Source: Spirochaetes bacterium ADurb.Bin215 | Lineage (GTDB): Bacteria; Spirochaetota; Spirochaetia; Treponematales; Treponemataceae | Assembly (NCBI GenBank): GCA_002070025.1 | Contig: MWCL01000013.1 | Location: forward strand, 1-48,250 | DNA: 48,250 bases | Direction of reading: 5' to 3' | Part shown: positions 3,833-12,713 of the stretch, in pieces | Numbering within the stretch: the first letter of the stretch is position 1 | Layout of the letters: each line of letters opens with the position of its first letter | The notes under the pieces: generated by a model | Seen by the model: only the letters and a program-made list of their open reading frames with translations | Told to the model about the DNA's origin: nothing | Database searches by the model: none | Translations under genes and position numbers: made by a program

Positions 3833-3893
3833 TTATCGTCATAAAACGTGCTAGTATTTCCGGTATACCAGTAACACATCTTCCCGCACCGGG

Positions 3894-3902
3894 TGTTATA
3901 AA
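3894..3902 (+). promoter_or_regulatory. Extended -10 promoter of the ECF sigma/TonB run
   Basis: TGT-TATAAA lies 22 bases before the ECF sigma start codon. No clear -35, and no clear ECF-type AAC/CGT pair, was found. It may be a housekeeping promoter rather than an autoregulated one. Confidence 0.45.
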
Positions 3903-3924: not shown

Positions 3925-4428
3925 ATGAGTAAATCCGGAACCATTACCATTGATGATTTTGAACACTTGTATGAACAGTTCGGCCCCATGGTGCTCCGAC
4001 GCTGCAGAGCCCTGCTCAAAGACGAAGAAAAGGCCCTCGATGCCATGCAGGACGTCTTTGTGCGGATTATTGAGCGACGGGAAAAGCTTTCGGGCGTTTG
4101 TTCAAGCCTCTTCTACACGGTCGCGACCTCGGTCTGCCTGAACCGGATCCGTTCGGACAAATTGAGGAGCGGGCCCGGCATTGACTTCATCATTGATACC
4201 GCGGCGGATACCCGGAGCACGGCCCATGACGAACAGGTTGTCTCGGAAATTTTTTTGGGCGAGCTTTTCAGGGACCTTCCGGAGTCCACCCGCCTCATGG
4301 CGTTCCTGCATTATGTGGACGGTTTGACGCTTCATGAAACGGCTAAAGAAACCGGTCTTTCGGTTTCCGGCGTTCGCAAGCGTCTTGCCGGCCTCAGGGC
4401 AAAAGCACTAAAGCGAGTGAGGGACTAA
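3925..4428 (+). CDS. ECF-type RNA polymerase sigma factor
   Basis: A 167-residue extracytoplasmic-function sigma factor. Region 2 occupies about residues 10-75 (LYEQFGPMVLRRCRALL, then EKALDAMQDVFVRII, the core-binding and -10 region). Region 4 covers about residues 110-165 with a helix-turn-helix (LTLHETAKETGLSVSGVRKRL). There is no sigma region 1 or 3, as expected for the class. The next gene starts one base after its stop and encodes a single-pass membrane protein that is the likely anti-sigma partner. It heads a run of nine co-directional, tightly packed genes ending with tonB, so it probably controls the envelope genes downstream; this is inferred from position only. Confidence 0.9.
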   Translation: MSKSGTITIDDFEHLYEQFGPMVLRRCRALLKDEEKALDAMQDVFVRIIERREKLSGVCSSLFYTVATSVCLNRIRSDKLRSGPGIDFIIDTAADTRSTAHDEQVVSEIFLGELFRDLPESTRLMAFLHYVDGLTLHETAKETGLSVSGVRKRLAGLRAKALKRVRD

Positions 4429-4429
4429 T

Positions 4430-5194
4430 ATGAGCATACCCGACATTTTTCTGGAGCAGATGCTCCTTGGCGAAAAAGAAACCGCATCCGACGCGGAAAC
4501 CCGTTCCCGACTCCGGGAAATGGAAGATTCGAACCGGGAAATTCTTGCACGGTATCCGGCGGATGCCATGAAGCGGGCGATCGCGGAAAAACTGGAAACT
4601 ACCGGCCGCTCCGCACTCCCCTTCACCAGCGGGCGGGCTCTTCCGGCGATCAGGGTTGTCGCCTTCGCGGCGGCGGCTTGCTTTGCCCTGGCCTTCGCGG
4701 TACTCGCGACCATGCAGCTTACCCGTTCGCCGGGCTTCACCGGCCAACGCCTGCTTACCGAGCGGCCGAAGGGCGACGCCATCCGCATGTACGTGTACCG
4801 CCAGGCCGGAGACCGCGCCGAAAAACTGGATACCGGCGACCGGGTTGCGGTGAACGACGTACTGCAGGTCAGCTATAATGTAGCCGGCAAACGCTGGGGA
4901 TTCATATTCTCCGTGGACGGAAACGGCGTACTTACCCAGCATTACCCCGAACGGGGAACCTTCTCGGCGCTCCTTGAGACAACAGGCGAGACCGCTCTCC
5001 CCTTCTCTTATCAGCTGGACGACGCACCCGATTTCGAGCGTTTCATCATGATCAGCGCGGAGGAATCTTTCAACGCCCAGCCGGTTCTCGAATCCATCAA
5101 GGCCGTTTCTCGCTCGGCTGGATTCCCCGCTAAAGATCTTTCGGATGTGGTGCCCGCAGGCATGACCGTAACCGACATTGTACTGTACAAGTGA
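4430..5194 (+). CDS. Single-pass membrane protein with DUF4384-like domain, candidate anti-sigma factor
   Basis: A 254-residue protein. About 70 charged cytoplasmic residues at the N-terminus are followed by one transmembrane helix near residues 76-95 (VVAFAAAACFALAFAVLA). A periplasmic domain of about 150 residues follows, whose DRVAVNDVLQVSYNV and WGFIFSVDGNGVLTQHYP resemble DUF4384. The layout (cytoplasmic head, one helix, periplasmic sensor) and the one-base gap after the ECF sigma gene make it a candidate anti-sigma factor. However, no zinc-finger HxxxCxxC anti-sigma motif is present. In my memory DUF4384 domains often occur near caspase-like proteins, which fits the next gene. The stop overlaps the region just upstream of that gene's start. 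Confidence 0.7.
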   Translation: MSIPDIFLEQMLLGEKETASDAETRSRLREMEDSNREILARYPADAMKRAIAEKLETTGRSALPFTSGRALPAIRVVAFAAAACFALAFAVLATMQLTRSPGFTGQRLLTERPKGDAIRMYVYRQAGDRAEKLDTGDRVAVNDVLQVSYNVAGKRWGFIFSVDGNGVLTQHYPERGTFSALLETTGETALPFSYQLDDAPDFERFIMISAEESFNAQPVLESIKAVSRSAGFPAKDLSDVVPAGMTVTDIVLYK

Positions 5195-5205
5195 GGATAA
5201 TCCCC

Positions 5206-7374
5206 ATGCATAAAACCAACATACTGTTCATTGCACTTGCCGCCCTTGTTCTGCTGCCCCTCGGGGCGCAATCGGCAGGAGCCGCAGAACCCCTCGCGGT
5301 AGAACGGTTTGCCCTCTACATCGCGGCCAATGACGGCGGAGAAGGACGTGAACGCCTTCGCTACGCCCTGAGCGACGCCCGGCGGCTTGCTGATACCCTG
5401 AACGAGGTGGGCGGCGTTGAATCGCGCAACAGCATGATTCTCGCCGATCCCGACCGCAAAAAAATCCACAACGCCTTCGCGCGTTTCGCAAAAGACATAG
5501 AACAGCGCCGGGGCAAGGCACGCAGAACCGAGTTCATTCTCTACTATTCCGGACATTCGGACGAGAACGCCCTTCTTCTCGGAAAGGAAACCTTTTCCTA
5601 CTCGGAACTCAAGGAATCCTTGTCGCTCGTTCCCTCGGACGTTCACGTGGTCATGCTCGATTCCTGCTTTTCGGGAAGCTTTGTCCGCGCGAAAGGCGGT
5701 TCCCGCAAGCAGCCCTTCCTCATGGACGACGCAAGCGAGGTAAAGGGCCATGCCTATCTTTCGTCAAGCTCCGCCGAGGAATCCTCCCAGGAGTCCGACA
5801 TAATCCAGGCGTCCTACTTTACCCACTCGCTCGTTACCGGGCTTCGCGGCGCCGCCGACGCTTCAGGAGACCGCAAGGTTTCGCTGAACGAACTGTACCA
5901 CTACGCCTTCAACGACACGCTTTCCAAAACGGAAACGAGCAGTTTCGGACCCCAACACCCTTCGTTCAACATAACCATGGTCGGCTCGGGGGATCTGGTG
6001 CTCACCGACATTACCAACGCGGACTCGGCGCTGATTTTTCCGGACGACGCGGAAGGGCGGTACTTTATCCGTACCGTCGACGGGCTTCTTGTTTCCGAGC
6101 TGAACAAGGTTGCCGGCACCGCTCTCGCGCTCGCCGTTCCGAAAGGCCGATACATCATCACCCTGGTAACTCCTCTCGCGACGAGCCAGGCGACGATTAC
6201 CCTCGAGCAGAACCAGCACTTCGTGCTGGGTTCCTCGCAGTTTCTCGGCGTACCCCTCGCGCAGGGACGCCCCCGGGGAGACGCAGAACCCCGGGAAGTG
6301 TTCGAAGAAATTACCGAGTGGACACCCATTGTAGTCGGCATTGTTCCCTCGCTCACCATCCCCATGGAAGATACCGACAACGCGAACATCTCGCTCGGAT
6401 TCTTCGCGGCAAAGAACCGGAACATCCGGGGAGTCCAGGCAAGCATACTCGGCGCCTATACCGAAAACTACATCCAGGGTGTCCAGGGGTCCCTGCTCTT
6501 CAACATGAACGGCGGCGGTTTCAGCGGCGCCCAACTCAACAACCTCGTCAACATAACCTACGGCGGGGAAGCGCGAGGCGCCCAGCTTTCGGGCTTCCTG
6601 AACTTTGCGGGCAACCGTTTCCAGGGTATTCAGGGCGCCGGCTTTCTGAACGTGTCCACCGGTCCGTTCAACGGCTTCCAGGCGGCGGGATTCATCAACA
6701 TCGCCACCGGCCCGCTCGACGGCGTTCAGGCGGCAGGGTTCATCAACATCGCCAATGAAGTACACGGCGTCCAGGCGGGCATCGTCAATATCGCCCGAAA
6801 CAATACCGGCGTCTCCCTCGGGTTGTTCAACTTCATCCTCGAAGGCGTACTCGATCCCGCGGTATATCTGGACACCAACGGCAACTTCTGGGTTCAGTAT
6901 CAGGGTGGTACCAACCTCTTTTACACTACCTACCAGATGGGCTACGACATGAACTGGACTCCCGGAAAGGATGCGGACTCCTTCTTCCTCGGTTTCGGTA
7001 TAGGAACCCGACGGTATCTGTCCAAACGTCTTTCGCTCGATTTTGAACTTCTGTCGCGACTGGTTCTCGATGTGAGCGAAAACAACGAATATATAACGAT
7101 GATCGAAAACGGCGAGGAAATCGTTACCGATACGGACGAAGAACGGGAAGCGTTCTTTAACGCGTTTGTACACGGCTACATTCCCTCGGCGCGGCTCACC
7201 CTCAACGTGCACCTCATGCGGCACCTGGCCCTCTTCGGCGCGCTCAATATTGATGTGCGGATAGCCGGACAAAATAACGGCGCCTTTGAAACGGGGAACC
7301 ATGCGAAGAGCTACGAAATCTCCGATGACACCGTATGGCTCTATCCATCCCTCTCGTTCGGAATAAAGTTCTAA
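5206..7374 (+). CDS. Secreted caspase-family (C14) protein with LA_2272-type surface repeats and C-terminal beta-rich domain
   Basis: A 722-residue exported protein. Signal peptide at residues 1-26 (hydrophobic core IALAALVLLPLGA). A caspase-like domain at about 35-260 has histidine 117 in YYSGHSD and cysteine 154 in LDSCFSG, both catalytic positions intact. From about 390 to 545 come about seven imperfect 20-22-residue repeats built on GVQ/GIQ/GFQ...GF(I/L)N, typical of LA_2272 surface-repeat proteins. The last ~170 residues alternate polar and hydrophobic and end in LSFGIKF, as in an outer-membrane barrel with a terminal phenylalanine. The start is ATG 5206 (GAGG nine bases upstream), not the GTG at 5191. 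It lies between the candidate anti-sigma gene and the TonB-dependent receptor. The protease target is unknown; the barrel is inferred. Confidence 0.82.
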   Translation: MHKTNILFIALAALVLLPLGAQSAGAAEPLAVERFALYIAANDGGEGRERLRYALSDARRLADTLNEVGGVESRNSMILADPDRKKIHNAFARFAKDIEQRRGKARRTEFILYYSGHSDENALLLGKETFSYSELKESLSLVPSDVHVVMLDSCFSGSFVRAKGGSRKQPFLMDDASEVKGHAYLSSSSAEESSQESDIIQASYFTHSLVTGLRGAADASGDRKVSLNELYHYAFNDTLSKTETSSFGPQHPSFNITMVGSGDLVLTDITNADSALIFPDDAEGRYFIRTVDGLLVSELNKVAGTALALAVPKGRYIITLVTPLATSQATITLEQNQHFVLGSSQFLGVPLAQGRPRGDAEPREVFEEITEWTPIVVGIVPSLTIPMEDTDNANISLGFFAAKNRNIRGVQASILGAYTENYIQGVQGSLLFNMNGGGFSGAQLNNLVNITYGGEARGAQLSGFLNFAGNRFQGIQGAGFLNVSTGPFNGFQAAGFINIATGPLDGVQAAGFINIANEVHGVQAGIVNIARNNTGVSLGLFNFILEGVLDPAVYLDTNGNFWVQYQGGTNLFYTTYQMGYDMNWTPGKDADSFFLGFGIGTRRYLSKRLSLDFELLSRLVLDVSENNEYITMIENGEEIVTDTDEEREAFFNAFVHGYIPSARLTLNVHLMRHLALFGALNIDVRIAGQNNGAFETGNHAKSYEISDDTVWLYPSLSFGIKF

Positions 7375-7385
7375 AAGGATTGACC

Positions 7386-9893
7386 ATGAAACGACTAGTA
7401 TTGCTCATTGCGCTCATTACGCTTCCCCTGTACCTTTTCGCGGAAACCGTTACCGTAACCGTTACGGACCGGGATCTCGACATCCCGCTTGAAGGGGTTA
7501 CGATTACCCTTCGGCCGTACGAGTTCGAAACCGTAACGGACGAAAACGGTGTTGCCCTGGTTGAACTTCCCGACGACGCCGACCGCGCGATGGTTTTCGC
7601 CGAGCTGCCCGGCTACCAGAGCCAGCGGGTATCAATCTCGGGAAGCGACCGATCCGTGGCGATGGTTCTTTCCATTACCGACGTAATTGAAGGGCGCGAA
7701 CTCGTGGTAGAACGTTCAGCCCCGGGAAAGAAAGACGAACAGTCCGGAATCTCGGTTGCCATGGACAAGTCTGAAATGGATACCACAGCAAATCTCGGAC
7801 TTGTTGAAGACATCATGTCTTCCATAAAAACACTGCCCGGTATGAGTTATTCCGGCGGTTTTAATGCCCAGCCGTCCATCCGCGGCGGCTATCCCGACGA
7901 GATGGGTGCGGTAATGGACGGGGTGTACATCACGCAGCCCTTCCAGTGGGGAGGCGGATATTCCATTTTCAACCCGAACATGGTCGAATCCGCCAAGATG
8001 TCCCACGGCGTATTCTCGGCACGATACGGCCGGGCGCTTTCCGGGTTGCTCGAAGTTACCACGGTACAGCCCGACGCTGGTGAATTCCGCTTTATCGGGG
8101 GCATTTCTACAACGTCACTGGACTTCTTCGCCCAGGCGCCCATCGGTAAAAAATCCGGTATTTTTCTCGGCGGCAAGGTAACCTATCTTGAGTCGATGCA
8201 GTTCCTCAACGATGTGATTATGGACCAGAGTCCCAAGCTGAAAGACACCATTCCCACCATGCCGTACATCCGGAACTTTTACACCAAGTTCTATCATGAG
8301 CATTCCCCCACCCTCAATTTCGGTCTCAACGCCTTCATCGGGTCGGACGGCATCGGGGTCAGGGAGGAGGAGGAAGAAAACGGTATTACCACCGACATGA
8401 AGTTCAACTGGGACTACATCCTCGGCTTTGTGGCATTCAAGGTAAACTGGATGCCCACCGACCGGAACACCGTACGCTTTCTCGGCGCCTGGAACATAAA
8501 CACCTACGAGCTTGAGTATGAAGAAAAAGTTTCGGGATCACGGGAGTACAGCGACGAGTTCGCGGATGAATACGGGGCCCTTCCCGGCGCAGGAACCGGC
8601 TTCACCCTCGACGGCCTGGACATGGAAGGTGAATCCGACACGACAATTCATCAGCTCCAGGCAAAAATTGAAACCGATGTTCTCCTGGCAAAAAATCATG
8701 TCCTCACCTTCGGAGCGGAGGAGATTTTTCACAGCACCGATATCTATGAAGCGTTCGGCGGCTGGGTTCCCATGGAATTCTACGAGCCGGCCGAAATTCG
8801 TTATAACTATTACACCATGGACACAGAAGGAAACCGTATCATTCACAGCGCCGCCTTTGCCCTGTGGGCATTCGGCTCCGAACAGTCTACACTTCGCGGA
8901 GAACTCGGCGTGCGCGGCGAGCATTACTACCTGTGGAATAACGGTTACGACCTCAAGACCCTGCCGGTCGTCAACCCGCGGGCATCACTGAACTGGACCC
9001 CTATCCGCAACCGGGGAGCGCTGGAAGCAGTAACCTTTTCGGCGGGAAGCGGTATCTTCTCCCAGTTCCCGGCTATCCTTTCAGCAATGGAGGAAAAATA
9101 CGGTATTGACGACTATGATCTCGGACCCGACCAATCCTGGTTCCAGGTTGCCGGCGTGGAAGCCCGGTTTCCCGAATCCTGGTCATTCCGCATAGAGGGG
9201 TATTACAAACACTATCTGAAGCGGCTATACGCAGCAGGCTACTATAACGAACTGACCGGCGATACCGATATCTCTGCCGACGACAACGGGGAAGGCTATA
9301 CCGCCGGGTTTGACCTCATGCTCCGCAAAAAGCAGGGCCGGTATTTCGATGGATATCTTTCCTACTCCTTCATTTATTCCCGCTTCAAAAACCCCATGAC
9401 TCCGCGCGGCGACACTACGGAAACCATTGACGGCGATCCGCTCGATGAATGGTACTACCCGTCTTTCCACCGGTTCCATACCCTCAACCTGGTGCTGAAC
9501 TGGCGGCCGTCTCCCGGAGTCACGGTCACGGTCACTTCCAGTCTCGCAACCGGCACGCCCCGGGAAGCAGTGGGCGATGTTATCGCATCGCCGACCCTCT
9601 TCAACGGCCAGGTGGTTGAACGGTATACCCGCAGTTCGTTCTACAGCGACACCCTGCGCAGCGACATTTCCTGCCCGGTAAATCTGAGAATCGCGTATTC
9701 AAACTACTACACCAACTCAAAGATCCGCTGGGAATATTACTTCGGTATCGAGGATATATTCGTCAACTTGTACAAGCCGAAAACCAATCCGAGATTCGAC
9801 CCCTACACTGGCGAAGAAGTGAAGGACAGCGATTCGGCGGACTTCAACATCGGCATCCCGGTCTTTTCCGTCGGCTACAAAATCAGTTACTAG
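7386..9893 (+). CDS. TonB-dependent outer-membrane receptor with N-terminal carboxypeptidase-regulatory-like domain
   Basis: An 835-residue outer-membrane receptor. Signal peptide at residues 1-19 (ending LYLFA). A CarboxypepD_reg-like beta-sandwich spans about 20-100 (PLEGVTITL...DENGVALVEL). The plug domain spans about 105-240, with NAQPSIRGGYPDEMGAVMDGV and the conserved ARYGRALSGLLEV. A 22-strand-type barrel follows, ending in VFSVGYKISY with a C-terminal aromatic residue. The start at 7386 has AAAGG seven bases upstream and lies 11 bases after the previous stop. Three genes on are ExbB, ExbD and TonB, so its energiser is encoded in the same run. A possible TonB box (ELVVER, about residue 110) is weak. 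The ligand is unknown. Confidence 0.88.
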   Translation: MKRLVLLIALITLPLYLFAETVTVTVTDRDLDIPLEGVTITLRPYEFETVTDENGVALVELPDDADRAMVFAELPGYQSQRVSISGSDRSVAMVLSITDVIEGRELVVERSAPGKKDEQSGISVAMDKSEMDTTANLGLVEDIMSSIKTLPGMSYSGGFNAQPSIRGGYPDEMGAVMDGVYITQPFQWGGGYSIFNPNMVESAKMSHGVFSARYGRALSGLLEVTTVQPDAGEFRFIGGISTTSLDFFAQAPIGKKSGIFLGGKVTYLESMQFLNDVIMDQSPKLKDTIPTMPYIRNFYTKFYHEHSPTLNFGLNAFIGSDGIGVREEEEENGITTDMKFNWDYILGFVAFKVNWMPTDRNTVRFLGAWNINTYELEYEEKVSGSREYSDEFADEYGALPGAGTGFTLDGLDMEGESDTTIHQLQAKIETDVLLAKNHVLTFGAEEIFHSTDIYEAFGGWVPMEFYEPAEIRYNYYTMDTEGNRIIHSAAFALWAFGSEQSTLRGELGVRGEHYYLWNNGYDLKTLPVVNPRASLNWTPIRNRGALEAVTFSAGSGIFSQFPAILSAMEEKYGIDDYDLGPDQSWFQVAGVEARFPESWSFRIEGYYKHYLKRLYAAGYYNELTGDTDISADDNGEGYTAGFDLMLRKKQGRYFDGYLSYSFIYSRFKNPMTPRGDTTETIDGDPLDEWYYPSFHRFHTLNLVLNWRPSPGVTVTVTSSLATGTPREAVGDVIASPTLFNGQVVERYTRSSFYSDTLRSDISCPVNLRIAYSNYYTNSKIRWEYYFGIEDIFVNLYKPKTNPRFDPYTGEEVKDSDSADFNIGIPVFSVGYKISY

Positions 9894-9907
9894 GAGTGAT
9901 AGAATCC

Positions 9908-10684
9908 ATGAAACATATACCAACCGTCCTGATACTTTTCTCACTGCTTTTTCTTTCCTGCGCATCCGCGCCTCCCGAAACGGGCATGCCCGCGTGGGAG
10001 TCAGTCGAGTTCGTACAGGAGAACGGCTCGACCCGGGCGCTCATACGGCTCACCGAAAAGTCCCGGACCGTCCTTGAAGGCTGGGCCTCAACGCAAGACG
10101 ACGGTACCTGGACCGTACAGGCAGAAAAACTCCGTTGGTTCAACAACTGGGCCCAGGGCTGGACCGAGGCGGATTTCGCCGTTACCGGTACCCTGACCCT
10201 TTCCGAAGCGGACGGACTCTGGAAAATCCGTGTCGTTGAGCCGGTCCGCGTGGACTACGCGGAGAAAGGCGCTATCCGCTACCGCGATTCCCGCCTGCTC
10301 GACGAGGCCGGACGGGACGCGTGTACCCGCCGCGTAAACCGGATATCGGCCGCCGTATCCCATCTTTCCGGAGCCCTTGAAGGGGCAGGCTTCCCGTACT
10401 TCACACACGAAAAGAAAAAACTCCGGCGGAACAGTTTTGAATACCACGCCGGATCCATCCTCTTCCCCGAACGGTATGACTATCCGGCAGGAACAAAAGA
10501 AAAATCGGATACAACGGTAACACGGGTCCGGGGTGAGGGTGTTTTATGGAATACAGAGTATACGGCAGAGCATATACCCGAAAATCTCCGGGATATCCGC
10601 AACGCCGGAACGCTGTACCGGGACTGGGAAGAATCCGGTGAATTGTTTTATTATCTGTATGTATTGGAGAACCTGAATGACTAA
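9908..10684 (+). CDS. Putative lipoprotein of unknown function in the TonB run
   Basis: A 258-residue protein with a type II signal peptide and lipobox (LLFLSC-A, cysteine about residue 18), so it is likely anchored in a membrane facing the periplasm. I do not recognise the mature part; it is mixed alpha/beta and rich in tryptophan (WESVEF, WKIRVVEP, RDWEESGELFYYLYV). The chosen ATG has AGGAG 11 bases upstream. Its last eight bases overlap the exbB start, so it is probably co-translated with the energiser. A role as an accessory to the receptor or to the caspase-like protein is inference from position. Confidence 0.75.
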   Translation: MKHIPTVLILFSLLFLSCASAPPETGMPAWESVEFVQENGSTRALIRLTEKSRTVLEGWASTQDDGTWTVQAEKLRWFNNWAQGWTEADFAVTGTLTLSEADGLWKIRVVEPVRVDYAEKGAIRYRDSRLLDEAGRDACTRRVNRISAAVSHLSGALEGAGFPYFTHEKKKLRRNSFEYHAGSILFPERYDYPAGTKEKSDTTVTRVRGEGVLWNTEYTAEHIPENLRDIRNAGTLYRDWEESGELFYYLYVLENLND

Positions 10685-11321
10685 CGAATGGAGCCTTATC
10701 GGACTTTTTGAACTTGGCGGACCCTTCATGTGGCCCCTGCTTGTCTTCTCGGTAGCAACGTTGGCGCTCATCATTGAGCGGGTTATCTATCTTTTCTGGC
10801 ACAACATGAATGTAAACCAGCTCAAGAACCATGTCATGTCCCTGGTTCGGGAGAACCGTATCAACGAAGCGCGGGCAGATCTCGGCATCATGGACCGCAG
10901 AAACACATCGGCCTCAATCCTGCTGGCGGTACTGAACAACACCCGCGGCGGCGAAACACGAATGGAGAAAGCGGCCGAAGCGGAAGCCATGGAACGGATC
11001 CGGCGGTGTGAAAACGGGTTCAACTACCTTACGGCACTGGCGTCTCTTTCGCCGCTAACCGGATTTCTCGGTACGGTATCGGGCATGATCGGTGCGTTCC
11101 GCTCCATCGCCAACGCGGACGAAGTAAACGCCCAGTTGGTCGCGAACGGAATTTATGAAGCCCTTATAACCACCGTATTCGGACTCTGTATTGCCATTGT
11201 CGCTCTCGTGGCGTATAACCTGCTCATTCAGCGGGTGGATACCTTTGCCGCAGACGTTACCAAAGCCGTAAGCGACCTGGTCTCCCTTATTACCACCCCC
11301 GAAGACGAGGAATCACGGTAA
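10677..11321 (+). CDS. exbB: ExbB/TolQ/MotA-family proton channel subunit
   Basis: A 214-residue inner-membrane protein with three transmembrane helices: about 15-37, 115-135 (LTALASLSPLTGFLGTVSGMIGAF, the family signature) and 160-185. It forms the pentameric channel that uses the proton-motive force with ExbD to drive TonB. GGAG lies seven bases before the ATG, and the start overlaps the preceding lipoprotein stop. Together with two exbD and tonB genes directly behind, it forms a dedicated energiser, presumably for the receptor at 7386-9893. TolQ or MotA identity is less likely because tonB, not tolA or tolB, is adjacent. Confidence 0.88.
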   Translation: MTNEWSLIGLFELGGPFMWPLLVFSVATLALIIERVIYLFWHNMNVNQLKNHVMSLVRENRINEARADLGIMDRRNTSASILLAVLNNTRGGETRMEKAAEAEAMERIRRCENGFNYLTALASLSPLTGFLGTVSGMIGAFRSIANADEVNAQLVANGIYEALITTVFGLCIAIVALVAYNLLIQRVDTFAADVTKAVSDLVSLITTPEDEESR

Positions 11322-11731
11322 TGATCCGGTTTCTGAAAAAGCGCCTGCCGGACGATCCGGCAAATTCGGGCGCGTTGAACGATCTTTCGTTCATACTGAT
11401 CATCTTCTTCATCGTCATCGCCGGGTTCAACATCAACAAGGGCTTTCTCCTTAACCTTCCCGACCGGGAAAAGCCCCGGGTGGTCAAAACAGAAGAGCTG
11501 ATCGTGGCGACGCTTGACGAGAACGGTGCGCTCCTTCTGGACGGAAACCCGGTTTCGGCGGAAGATCTCCGCCGGGAAACCGAAGCGTTGCAAAAGGAAT
11601 TCCCCAACTGCACCTTTTTGCTGCAGATACACCCGGACGCGGAATATCAGTCGGTCATTTCCGTGATTCACGATATCAGGACCCTCAAGGTCGAGAACTT
11701 TTCGTTCCGGATGACAGGAGGCGCCGAATGA
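11321..11731 (+). CDS. exbD: ExbD/TolR-family protein, first copy
   Basis: A 136-residue inner-membrane protein with a short cytoplasmic N-terminus, one transmembrane helix at about 20-40 (LNDLSFILIIFFIVIAGF) carrying the conserved aspartate needed for proton use, and a periplasmic domain of about 95 residues. It starts on the last base of exbB (TAATG) and ends in a four-base overlap with the second exbD. Two different ExbD proteins in tandem are known in some TonB systems; the pair here shares the fold but little sequence, so they are not a recent duplication. Confidence 0.87.
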   Translation: MIRFLKKRLPDDPANSGALNDLSFILIIFFIVIAGFNINKGFLLNLPDREKPRVVKTEELIVATLDENGALLLDGNPVSAEDLRRETEALQKEFPNCTFLLQIHPDAEYQSVISVIHDIRTLKVENFSFRMTGGAE

Positions 11732-12132
11732 TGCAATTGAAACGGCGCAGAAGCCGACCGGTTATTCCCATGTCGTCCATGTCCGATATCGGGTTTCTTC
11801 TGCTCATCTTCATCATGCTCATCTCGCTCATCAATCAGCGGCATGAAGTAAAGATCGAGTACTCCGAAGCGAAGAAACTCGAGCAAACACAGGAAACGGA
11901 TAACCTGGAAATCTGGGTCGAAAAAAACGGACGGATGTCGGTCAACGGCAGTTTCGTGAACGAGCGGGAACTGGAAGGCATCATTGCCGAAACCCTGTCC
12001 CTCAAACCGGGCACCCGGGTTCACCTGATTGCGGACCGTGCAACACCGTACAAATTTGTGAACGGCGCGGTCTCCATTCTCCAGCGGCTCCAGCACCGGG
12101 TCGTCAGTTTTGTGGTGGAGGAAGAAAAATGA
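11728..12132 (+). CDS. ExbD/TolR-family protein, second copy
   Basis: A 134-residue inner-membrane protein. A basic N-terminus (QLKRRRSRP) precedes the ExbD signature MSSMSDIGFLLLIFIMLISL, with the conserved aspartate at the start of the single transmembrane helix. A periplasmic domain follows. AGGAGG lies seven bases before the ATG. It overlaps both neighbours by four bases (ATGA), implying coupled translation and fixed stoichiometry with the first ExbD and TonB. Confidence 0.87.
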   Translation: MMQLKRRRSRPVIPMSSMSDIGFLLLIFIMLISLINQRHEVKIEYSEAKKLEQTQETDNLEIWVEKNGRMSVNGSFVNERELEGIIAETLSLKPGTRVHLIADRATPYKFVNGAVSILQRLQHRVVSFVVEEEK

Positions 12133-12713
12133 CCAAGCGATTCCTGTTGAATCACCGCTACCTCATCATTTTCATTTTTGTCGCGCTGGTGCATGTCTCG
12201 GTACTTGCCCTGGTACGCTTTACCGCGCCGGAAAAGTCCGGGGGAGACGACTCCGAATATGAGGTGTTCAAACTGGTGGATGTGGAAGAATACGTTCCGC
12301 CACCCCCTGCGCCGGATACCACCGTGGTCTATAACCAGCCGACCGCGGCAGAGCGGGTCATTACCACCGAGAACGAGATCATTGAAATTGAGACCCGTGA
12401 ACCGGTAATCAATTATGTACCCCAGCACAAGATTTCGGTTATTCCGGACATTCCTACCCGGGAAGTGCTGAACCGCATCGTCTATCCGCCCATGGCCCTG
12501 CGTCAGGAAATTGAAGGGGTCGTGTATCTTGAATTGTTTATAGACCAGAGCGGCGTGGTGCGGAAAATACTGGTGCTCAAGGATCCCGGATACGGTTTCG
12601 CCGACGCGGCAGTGGCGGCCCTGACCGGTTTGCGCTGCAAACCGGCGTACGCGAACGGGGAACCGGTAGCCGTACGCTTCCGCTACCCCGTACGCTTCAC
12701 CGTTCAGCGCTAA
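12129..12713 (+). CDS. tonB: TonB-family energy transducer
   Basis: A 194-residue protein. The N-terminal transmembrane anchor at about 10-30 contains a histidine (FVALVHVSVLALV), as in TonB anchors. A very short proline stretch (VPPPPAP, about residue 57) replaces the usual long proline-rich spacer. The C-terminal TonB domain at about 110-192 shows YPPMALRQEIEGVVYLELFI and the closing FRYPVRFTV. It spans the periplasm to touch the receptor's TonB box. It is the last gene of the run and ends one base from the convergent acyl-CoA synthetase gene, leaving no room for a separate terminator. Confidence 0.88.
   Translation: MTKRFLLNHRYLIIFIFVALVHVSVLALVRFTAPEKSGGDDSEYEVFKLVDVEEYVPPPPAPDTTVVYNQPTAAERVITTENEIIEIETREPVINYVPQHKISVIPDIPTREVLNRIVYPPMALRQEIEGVVYLELFIDQSGVVRKILVLKDPGYGFADAAVAALTGLRCKPAYANGEPVAVRFRYPVRFTVQR

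Follow-up and report, generated by a model that had tools for sequence, protein, structure and literature searches.

A proposed protease-gated ECF sigma regulon with a TonB-dependent import system as its output in Spirochaetota

The window analysed here is a stretch of 48,250 nucleotides (nt) of contig MWCL01000013.1 from Spirochaetes bacterium ADurb.Bin215 (Treponemataceae, Spirochaetota), taken from an assembly of 2.6 Mb in 189 contigs, and its genus also takes in Spirochaetales metagenome-assembled genomes such as Spiro_10 and Spiro_09. Positions 3925-12713 hold nine co-directional genes, which encode an extracytoplasmic function (ECF) sigma factor, a candidate anti-sigma factor, an exported caspase, a TonB-dependent receptor, a lipoprotein, ExbB, two ExbD proteins and TonB. 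An initial description made from the letters of the window alone (the sequence-only reading) had reported nine tightly packed genes on one strand, including a receptor with a complete energiser. All nine were recovered, with gaps, in gene order, of +1, +11, +11, +14, -8, -1, -4 and -4 nt, and the Plug, MotA_ExbB, TonB_C and both ExbD domains score above their Pfam cut-offs. The arrangement is non-random, because it recurs across many species. The individual genes are:

3925..4428, + strand: ECF sigma factor, 167 amino acids; Sigma70_r2 (E 7e-10) and Sigma70_r4_2 in Pfam, TIGR02937 above cut-off
4430..5194, + strand: single-pass membrane anti-sigma candidate, 254 amino acids, adjoining the sigma and caspase genes; AlphaFold model with a predicted local distance difference test score (pLDDT) of 85
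5206..7374, + strand: exported C14 caspase, 722 amino acids (fold at residues 29-271), followed by LA_2272-like repeats and a beta-rich C-terminal half; Peptidase_C14 E 7e-12
7386..9893, + strand: TonB-dependent receptor, 835 amino acids, with a weak carboxypeptidase-regulatory-like N-terminal region, plug and barrel; Plug 33.6 bits against a Pfam cut-off of 23.9
9908..10684, + strand: lipoprotein with lipobox LSC, which accompanies related receptors and has homologues also beside receptor clusters lacking the three upstream genes
10677..11321, + strand: ExbB; MotA_ExbB E 2e-28, 99 bits
11321..11731, + strand: first ExbD; E 3e-16, 60 bits
11728..12132, + strand: second ExbD; E 1e-16, 62 bits
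12129..12713, + strand: TonB; TonB_C 53 bits, the sole TonB_C match in the assembly

The first protein has the length of an ECF sigma factor and contains regions 2 and 4 only. Upstream of its gene lies a bipartite element that takes the form GTRACAY-N15-GTGTYWAAT across the family, with a spacer fixed at 15 nt, and its presence 5' of the sigma gene in most loci is consistent with the autoregulation typical of ECF sigma factors. The palindromic appearance of the window's copy (GTAACAC...GTGTTA) suggested the site of a dimeric regulator; this candidate was rejected. The symmetry is broken in relatives (GTGACAT...GTGTCT), and for this reason a -35/-10 pair recognised by the sigma factor fits the element better. 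Two copies lie in the operon:

3871..3900, + strand: candidate autoregulatory promoter, GTAACAC-N15-GTGTTATA, score 22.4, conserved 5' of the sigma gene across the family
10517..10546, + strand: second sigma-type promoter match (strict motif), score 17.8, within the lipoprotein gene and 160 nt before exbB

The product of the second gene is modelled with N-terminal helices, a membrane helix at residues 74-98, a variable low-confidence linker at 97-110 and a folded beta domain that would be exported. Its gene position and topology suggest that it acts as an anti-sigma factor, and it is called the inhibitor below in this provisional sense. The sequence-only reading had termed it DUF4384-like. That label holds distantly, and only at the level of the family, whose members reach at most 22-24 bits against PF14326 (best 23.9, below the cut-off of 27); the window protein itself has no Pfam match. 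No FecR domain was found in the window protein with Pfam or among the matches listed for 19 of its homologues, and a fold search with the model gave no match at E 0.001.

The third protein carries a signal peptide and matches Peptidase_C14 with 46 bits against a Pfam cut-off of 21.4. With residues numbered from the ATG at 5206, His117 lies within YYSGHSD and Cys154 within LDSCxSG, both motifs being near-invariant among homologues, and the predicted model aligns with procaspase-7 at a Z-score of about 20. Identity in structural alignments is 20-21% with metacaspase 4 and MALT1 and 11-16% with animal caspases. The C14 caspase-like protein with an intact catalytic dyad that the sequence-only reading had described is therefore upheld by motifs, Pfam score and predicted fold alike. 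As to the accompanying description as a surface-repeat protein, an LA_2272-like match (NF047436) exists, with a score of 20.4 bits that falls under the cut-off of 25, and the match to VC2662 is weak. In fold searches the caspase domain filled the match lists, and the C-terminal half received no fold call. Relatives also hold LA_2272-like repeat regions resembling this half in proteins without a caspase domain (L053-L061). In proteases of this kind an acidic residue at the position of D152, two residues before the catalytic cysteine, points to cleavage after basic residues; D152 is near-invariant in the homologues, suggesting this specificity for the present family. The catalytic codons, and the sites at which cleavage is proposed, are:

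4763..4774, + strand: R112-P-K114-G115 in the inhibitor's periplasmic stalk, where cleavage is proposed
5554..5556, + strand: catalytic His117 codon, in near-invariant SGHS
5665..5667, + strand: catalytic Cys154 codon, in near-invariant DSC
5686..5700, + strand: R161-A-K163-G-G in the loop that follows Cys154, where the caspase may process itself

Related loci, 80 in all, were gathered from 59 related genomes and then from a collection of genome contigs. The sigma, inhibitor and caspase genes (the trio) are adjacent in all 70 loci with a readable upstream side. Downstream of the trio, the 46 assessable loci divide into 22 with receptor, exbB and tonB, 2 with exbB and tonB and no receptor, and 22 with none of these. 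On the caspase tree the complete arrangement appears in two places that do not adjoin: one is the window's genus, the other a group of gut Treponema to which the complete T. ruminis genome belongs. Trio-only lineages such as T. bryantii lie between them. Since roughly half of the loci have the trio and no receptor, the receptor is probably an output of the system rather than its sensor. In G037, from another family, the trio is followed by ExbB-type, ExbD-type and TonB-like genes and no receptor (L050:7226-9395, minus strand), in what looks like a separate association of the caspase with an energiser. Of 393 Spirochaetota genomes surveyed, 55 have the caspase and 34 a member of the receptor family. 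Within the window's family, 13 of the 14 receptor-bearing genomes also have the caspase (one counted from a contig-end fragment; Fisher p about 2e-7 or lower, for assumed totals of 60-120 genomes and with phylogeny ignored); outside that family the association is absent from the survey, both genes being found together in 3 genomes.

These distributions bear on a scheme of the FecIRA type, with which the sequence-only reading had compared the locus, and in which the loaded receptor would signal directly to the inhibitor, leaving the caspase an accessory. The joint encoding and apparent co-regulation of a sigma factor, an inhibitor and a TonB receptor would suit such surface signalling. Besides the frequency of trio-only loci, some of whose genomes lack any close relative of the receptor, domain searches speak against it: Pfam detects only Plug and weak regulatory-like matches (up to E 1) in the receptor, with no STN domain of the kind through which FecA signals, and the inhibitor, as noted, has no FecR domain. 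We accordingly reject membership in the FecIRA class and regard direct signalling by the receptor as very improbable. Sequence searches found no solved structures related to the receptor. The window's genome has a second TonB receptor (L209:5337-7202, minus strand, contig C22) with no motif nearby, which would have to share the operon's TonB because no other was detected in the assembly; T. ruminis, likewise, has one TonB, and one receptor.

The reach of the sigma factor was assessed with a promoter matrix trained solely on sites upstream of sigma genes and then scanned over all loci. In gut Treponema the motif precedes the receptor gene in 21/21 loci, 46-54 nt from the start of the open reading frame, and exbB in 12/20, most of the others having exbB close behind the receptor; across all loci it gave zero matches 5' of the inhibitor, caspase, exbD or tonB genes. 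Elsewhere it matched 8 times in 1.14 Mb, and the true background is lower, because some of these matches adjoin the same operons. The strict motif has just two matches in the window's 2.6 Mb genome, one at 3871 and one at 10517, and both belong to the operon. The second is a probable promoter for exbB, and not an established one, because close relatives do not keep its position.

Receptor clusters that lie apart from the trio offer a further view of this relationship. Four of five such clusters in Treponemataceae carry the motif (those of G258, G294, G355 and T. porcinum, and not that of G338), and G195, which belongs to a different family of the class, has before its unlinked cluster a weaker match that copies the variant found at that genome's own sigma promoter. 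The motif is absent from the coding strand (0/6) in six genomes that have a receptor cluster and no trio. The sequence-only reading had held that finding the sigma/caspase and receptor/TonB halves apart in relatives would speak against their linkage; such separation literally occurs, yet the unlinked clusters usually keep the shared promoter. The proposed link between the two halves is supported, and more strongly than the letters of the window alone could show, by the ECF-type motif that appears before the sigma, receptor and exbB genes. We consider it highly probable, from these promoter comparisons, that the sigma regulon includes the receptor and energiser genes. The same pattern weighs on the idea that the trio is a defence or cell-death module adjoining a transport operon by chance. 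Prokaryotic systems of cell death and immunity do include proteases of the caspase family (PMC8195603), but the motif ties the trio to transport genes even at unlinked loci, the caspase carries a signal peptide, and neither it nor the inhibitor has a PADLOC match; a defence module was rejected, and a chance juxtaposition of this kind seems exceedingly improbable.

In trio-only genomes, further motif matches precede genes for envelope proteins and lipoproteins, which hints that the signal may be envelope-related. Individual matches recorded in the scan, in trio-only and other genomes, include: 1) in two T. bryantii strains (L196, L197), a strict motif before the gene of a small, conserved, exported protein, and in a third (L207) a similar site; 2) in G022, matches before an exported lipoprotein and before an operon that joins a peptidase to several lipoproteins (L082, L083), the caspase of this genome being without the long C-terminal half; 3) in a Spiro_10 genome (G011), a match before a TetR-type regulator followed by TolC-type and resistance-nodulation-division (RND)-type efflux genes (L080:30-5912, minus strand); 4) in T. 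porcinum, a match about 400 nt before exbB in an exbB-exbD-exbD-tonB-receptor cluster away from the trio (L208:4544-9579); and 5) further first-pass matches, single cases like that of G011, at the xseA region of G022, a chemoreceptor gene of G018 and a V-ATPase gene of G001.

The inhibitor and the caspase are further connected by the tetrapeptide pattern R-x-K-G. It is present in 73/78 inhibitor homologues against 4.2 expected from shuffles, and in 79/81 caspases against 8.3, and other proteins of the operon show 0-1 occurrences. In the inhibitors the K-G pair is invariant (78/78) though the preceding linker is hypervariable; the two caspases without R-x-K-G-G are both fragments, and every homologue covering that part has it. 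The caspase site begins at R161 within a loop modelled at pLDDT <50, and with its lysine nine residues past the catalytic cysteine. In caspases, the loop after the catalytic cysteine is cut on activation. The simplest reading, a suggestive one, is that a single recognition sequence would serve both self-processing of the caspase and cutting of the inhibitor. Those prokaryotic caspases that have been characterised cut after basic residues and process themselves (PMC6426788, PMC5756287).

Because the pattern is common to the inhibitor stalk and the caspase loop, processing of the inhibitor by the caspase, which the sequence-only reading had put forward as a possibility, gains support; we put the chances that such cleavage takes place at about even. 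The sharing is suggestive rather than probative, as within each family the motif amounts to one conserved feature. A competing explanation accepts that the sigma factor controls the receptor and energiser, and makes the caspase an output enzyme acting on outer-membrane proteins or imported cargo, with the inhibitor answering to another protease or to conformational signalling through its DUF4384-like domain. The caspase gene itself lies within the autoregulated operon, DUF4384 is found with caspases in other settings, and cleavage of the inhibitor is a proposal, all of which would accord with this view. Against it stand the shared R-x-K-G and the fact that, among the 70 assessable loci, the caspase never occurs without the inhibitor and sigma genes, whereas the receptor is optional; we judge it unlikely, if worth serious attention.

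Our preferred interpretation is a protease-gated ECF sigma regulon with one TonB-dependent import system as its output, to which we assign a probability of roughly 0.55. It builds on the gene order, the conservation of the trio, the promoter motif shared even by unlinked clusters and the common R-x-K-G, all drawn from sequence comparison. The proposed course of events would be as follows: 1) the membrane-spanning inhibitor would hold the sigma factor at the inner membrane; 2) on an envelope signal the exported caspase, probably seated on an outer-membrane beta domain, would process itself at R-x-K|G-G; 3) the activated caspase would cut the inhibitor at R-x-K|G, on the periplasmic side and right next to the inner membrane; 4) general proteases would remove the remaining stub and free the sigma factor; and 5) the sigma factor would transcribe its own operon, in a positive feedback, together with the receptor and ExbB-ExbD-ExbD-TonB, all of these genes, in the window's genus, making up a single operon in which a second promoter probably precedes exbB. 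The inhibitor's activity and topology, its cleavage, the order of these steps, the signal and the cargo all belong to what we infer. More tentatively, and at somewhat less than even odds, the exported caspase on its outer-membrane domain may be the first protease to act on a transmembrane anti-sigma factor and hence control TonB-dependent import, in a caspase-based cascade of envelope signalling that would extend across Spirochaetota and to a few genomes of other phyla.

Several points weigh against this interpretation. The anti-sigma activity is deduced solely from position and topology, and the outer-membrane barrel in the C-terminal half of the caspase is only a proposal. The two occurrences of R-x-K-G are conserved features of two families, and each could be kept for structural reasons. 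The window's genus has no motif directly before the receptor, and the position of its exbB site is not conserved. G338 has both the trio and a receptor cluster and no motif, and the same holds for G042 and G357; these two belong to another family, and their own sigma promoters do not fit the model either. Many of the loci come from close relatives, so that the counts overstate their independence.

By analogy, the closest precedents appear to be RseA/DegS and Csx29-Csx30-sigma. Like the RseA-DegS-RseP/sigma E pathway, the present system would have a single-pass anti-sigma factor, a cut at the outer face of the inner membrane and an autoregulated ECF sigma factor; there, however, the protease is a PDZ serine protease, whereas here it would be a caspase of the same operon, and the main output a TonB receptor with its energiser. 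In Craspase a caspase-like protease acts on an anti-sigma protein, and sigma sites occur at its own locus (PMC10028731). The Csx29-Csx30-CASP-sigma system thus resembles the proposed one in having a caspase-like protease directed at an ECF sigma inhibitor and sigma sites at its own locus, but it is RNA-guided, works with an effector of CRISPR (clustered regularly interspaced short palindromic repeats) and has another inhibitor, while the present locus encodes an exported protease and an inhibitor that spans the membrane. Craspase, of CRISPR type III-E, is marked by a CHAT protease accompanied by Cas7-11 and a CRISPR array; none of the nine genes of the operon is Cas-like, no search having been made over the remainder of the genome. 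FecI-FecR-FecA, known in spirochaetes from LIC_12757/LIC_12756 (PMC12155086), also pairs an ECF sigma factor with a regulator in the membrane and has a TonB receptor for its target; the present locus differs in yielding no FecR or STN match, in carrying a caspase and in having a receptor that can be missing. The MaOC1 orthocaspase and its neighbouring toxin-antitoxin pair (PMC7935541) likewise combine a prokaryotic caspase homologue with cleavage of a neighbouring inhibitor, as proposed here, but in a toxin-antitoxin setting with no sigma factor and no membrane or export features. A literature search found no published description of the sigma/inhibitor/caspase/TonB combination.

Little is known of what exported bacterial caspases do, and for one of them predictions can now be made of its substrate and cleavage site, and of the sigma factor, promoter sequence and target genes that go with it. 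Carriers of the system include gut treponemes that can be cultured, T. ruminis among them. If the proposal is true, it would represent an additional arrangement, beside FecIRA signalling, by which envelope signals are coupled to TonB-dependent uptake.

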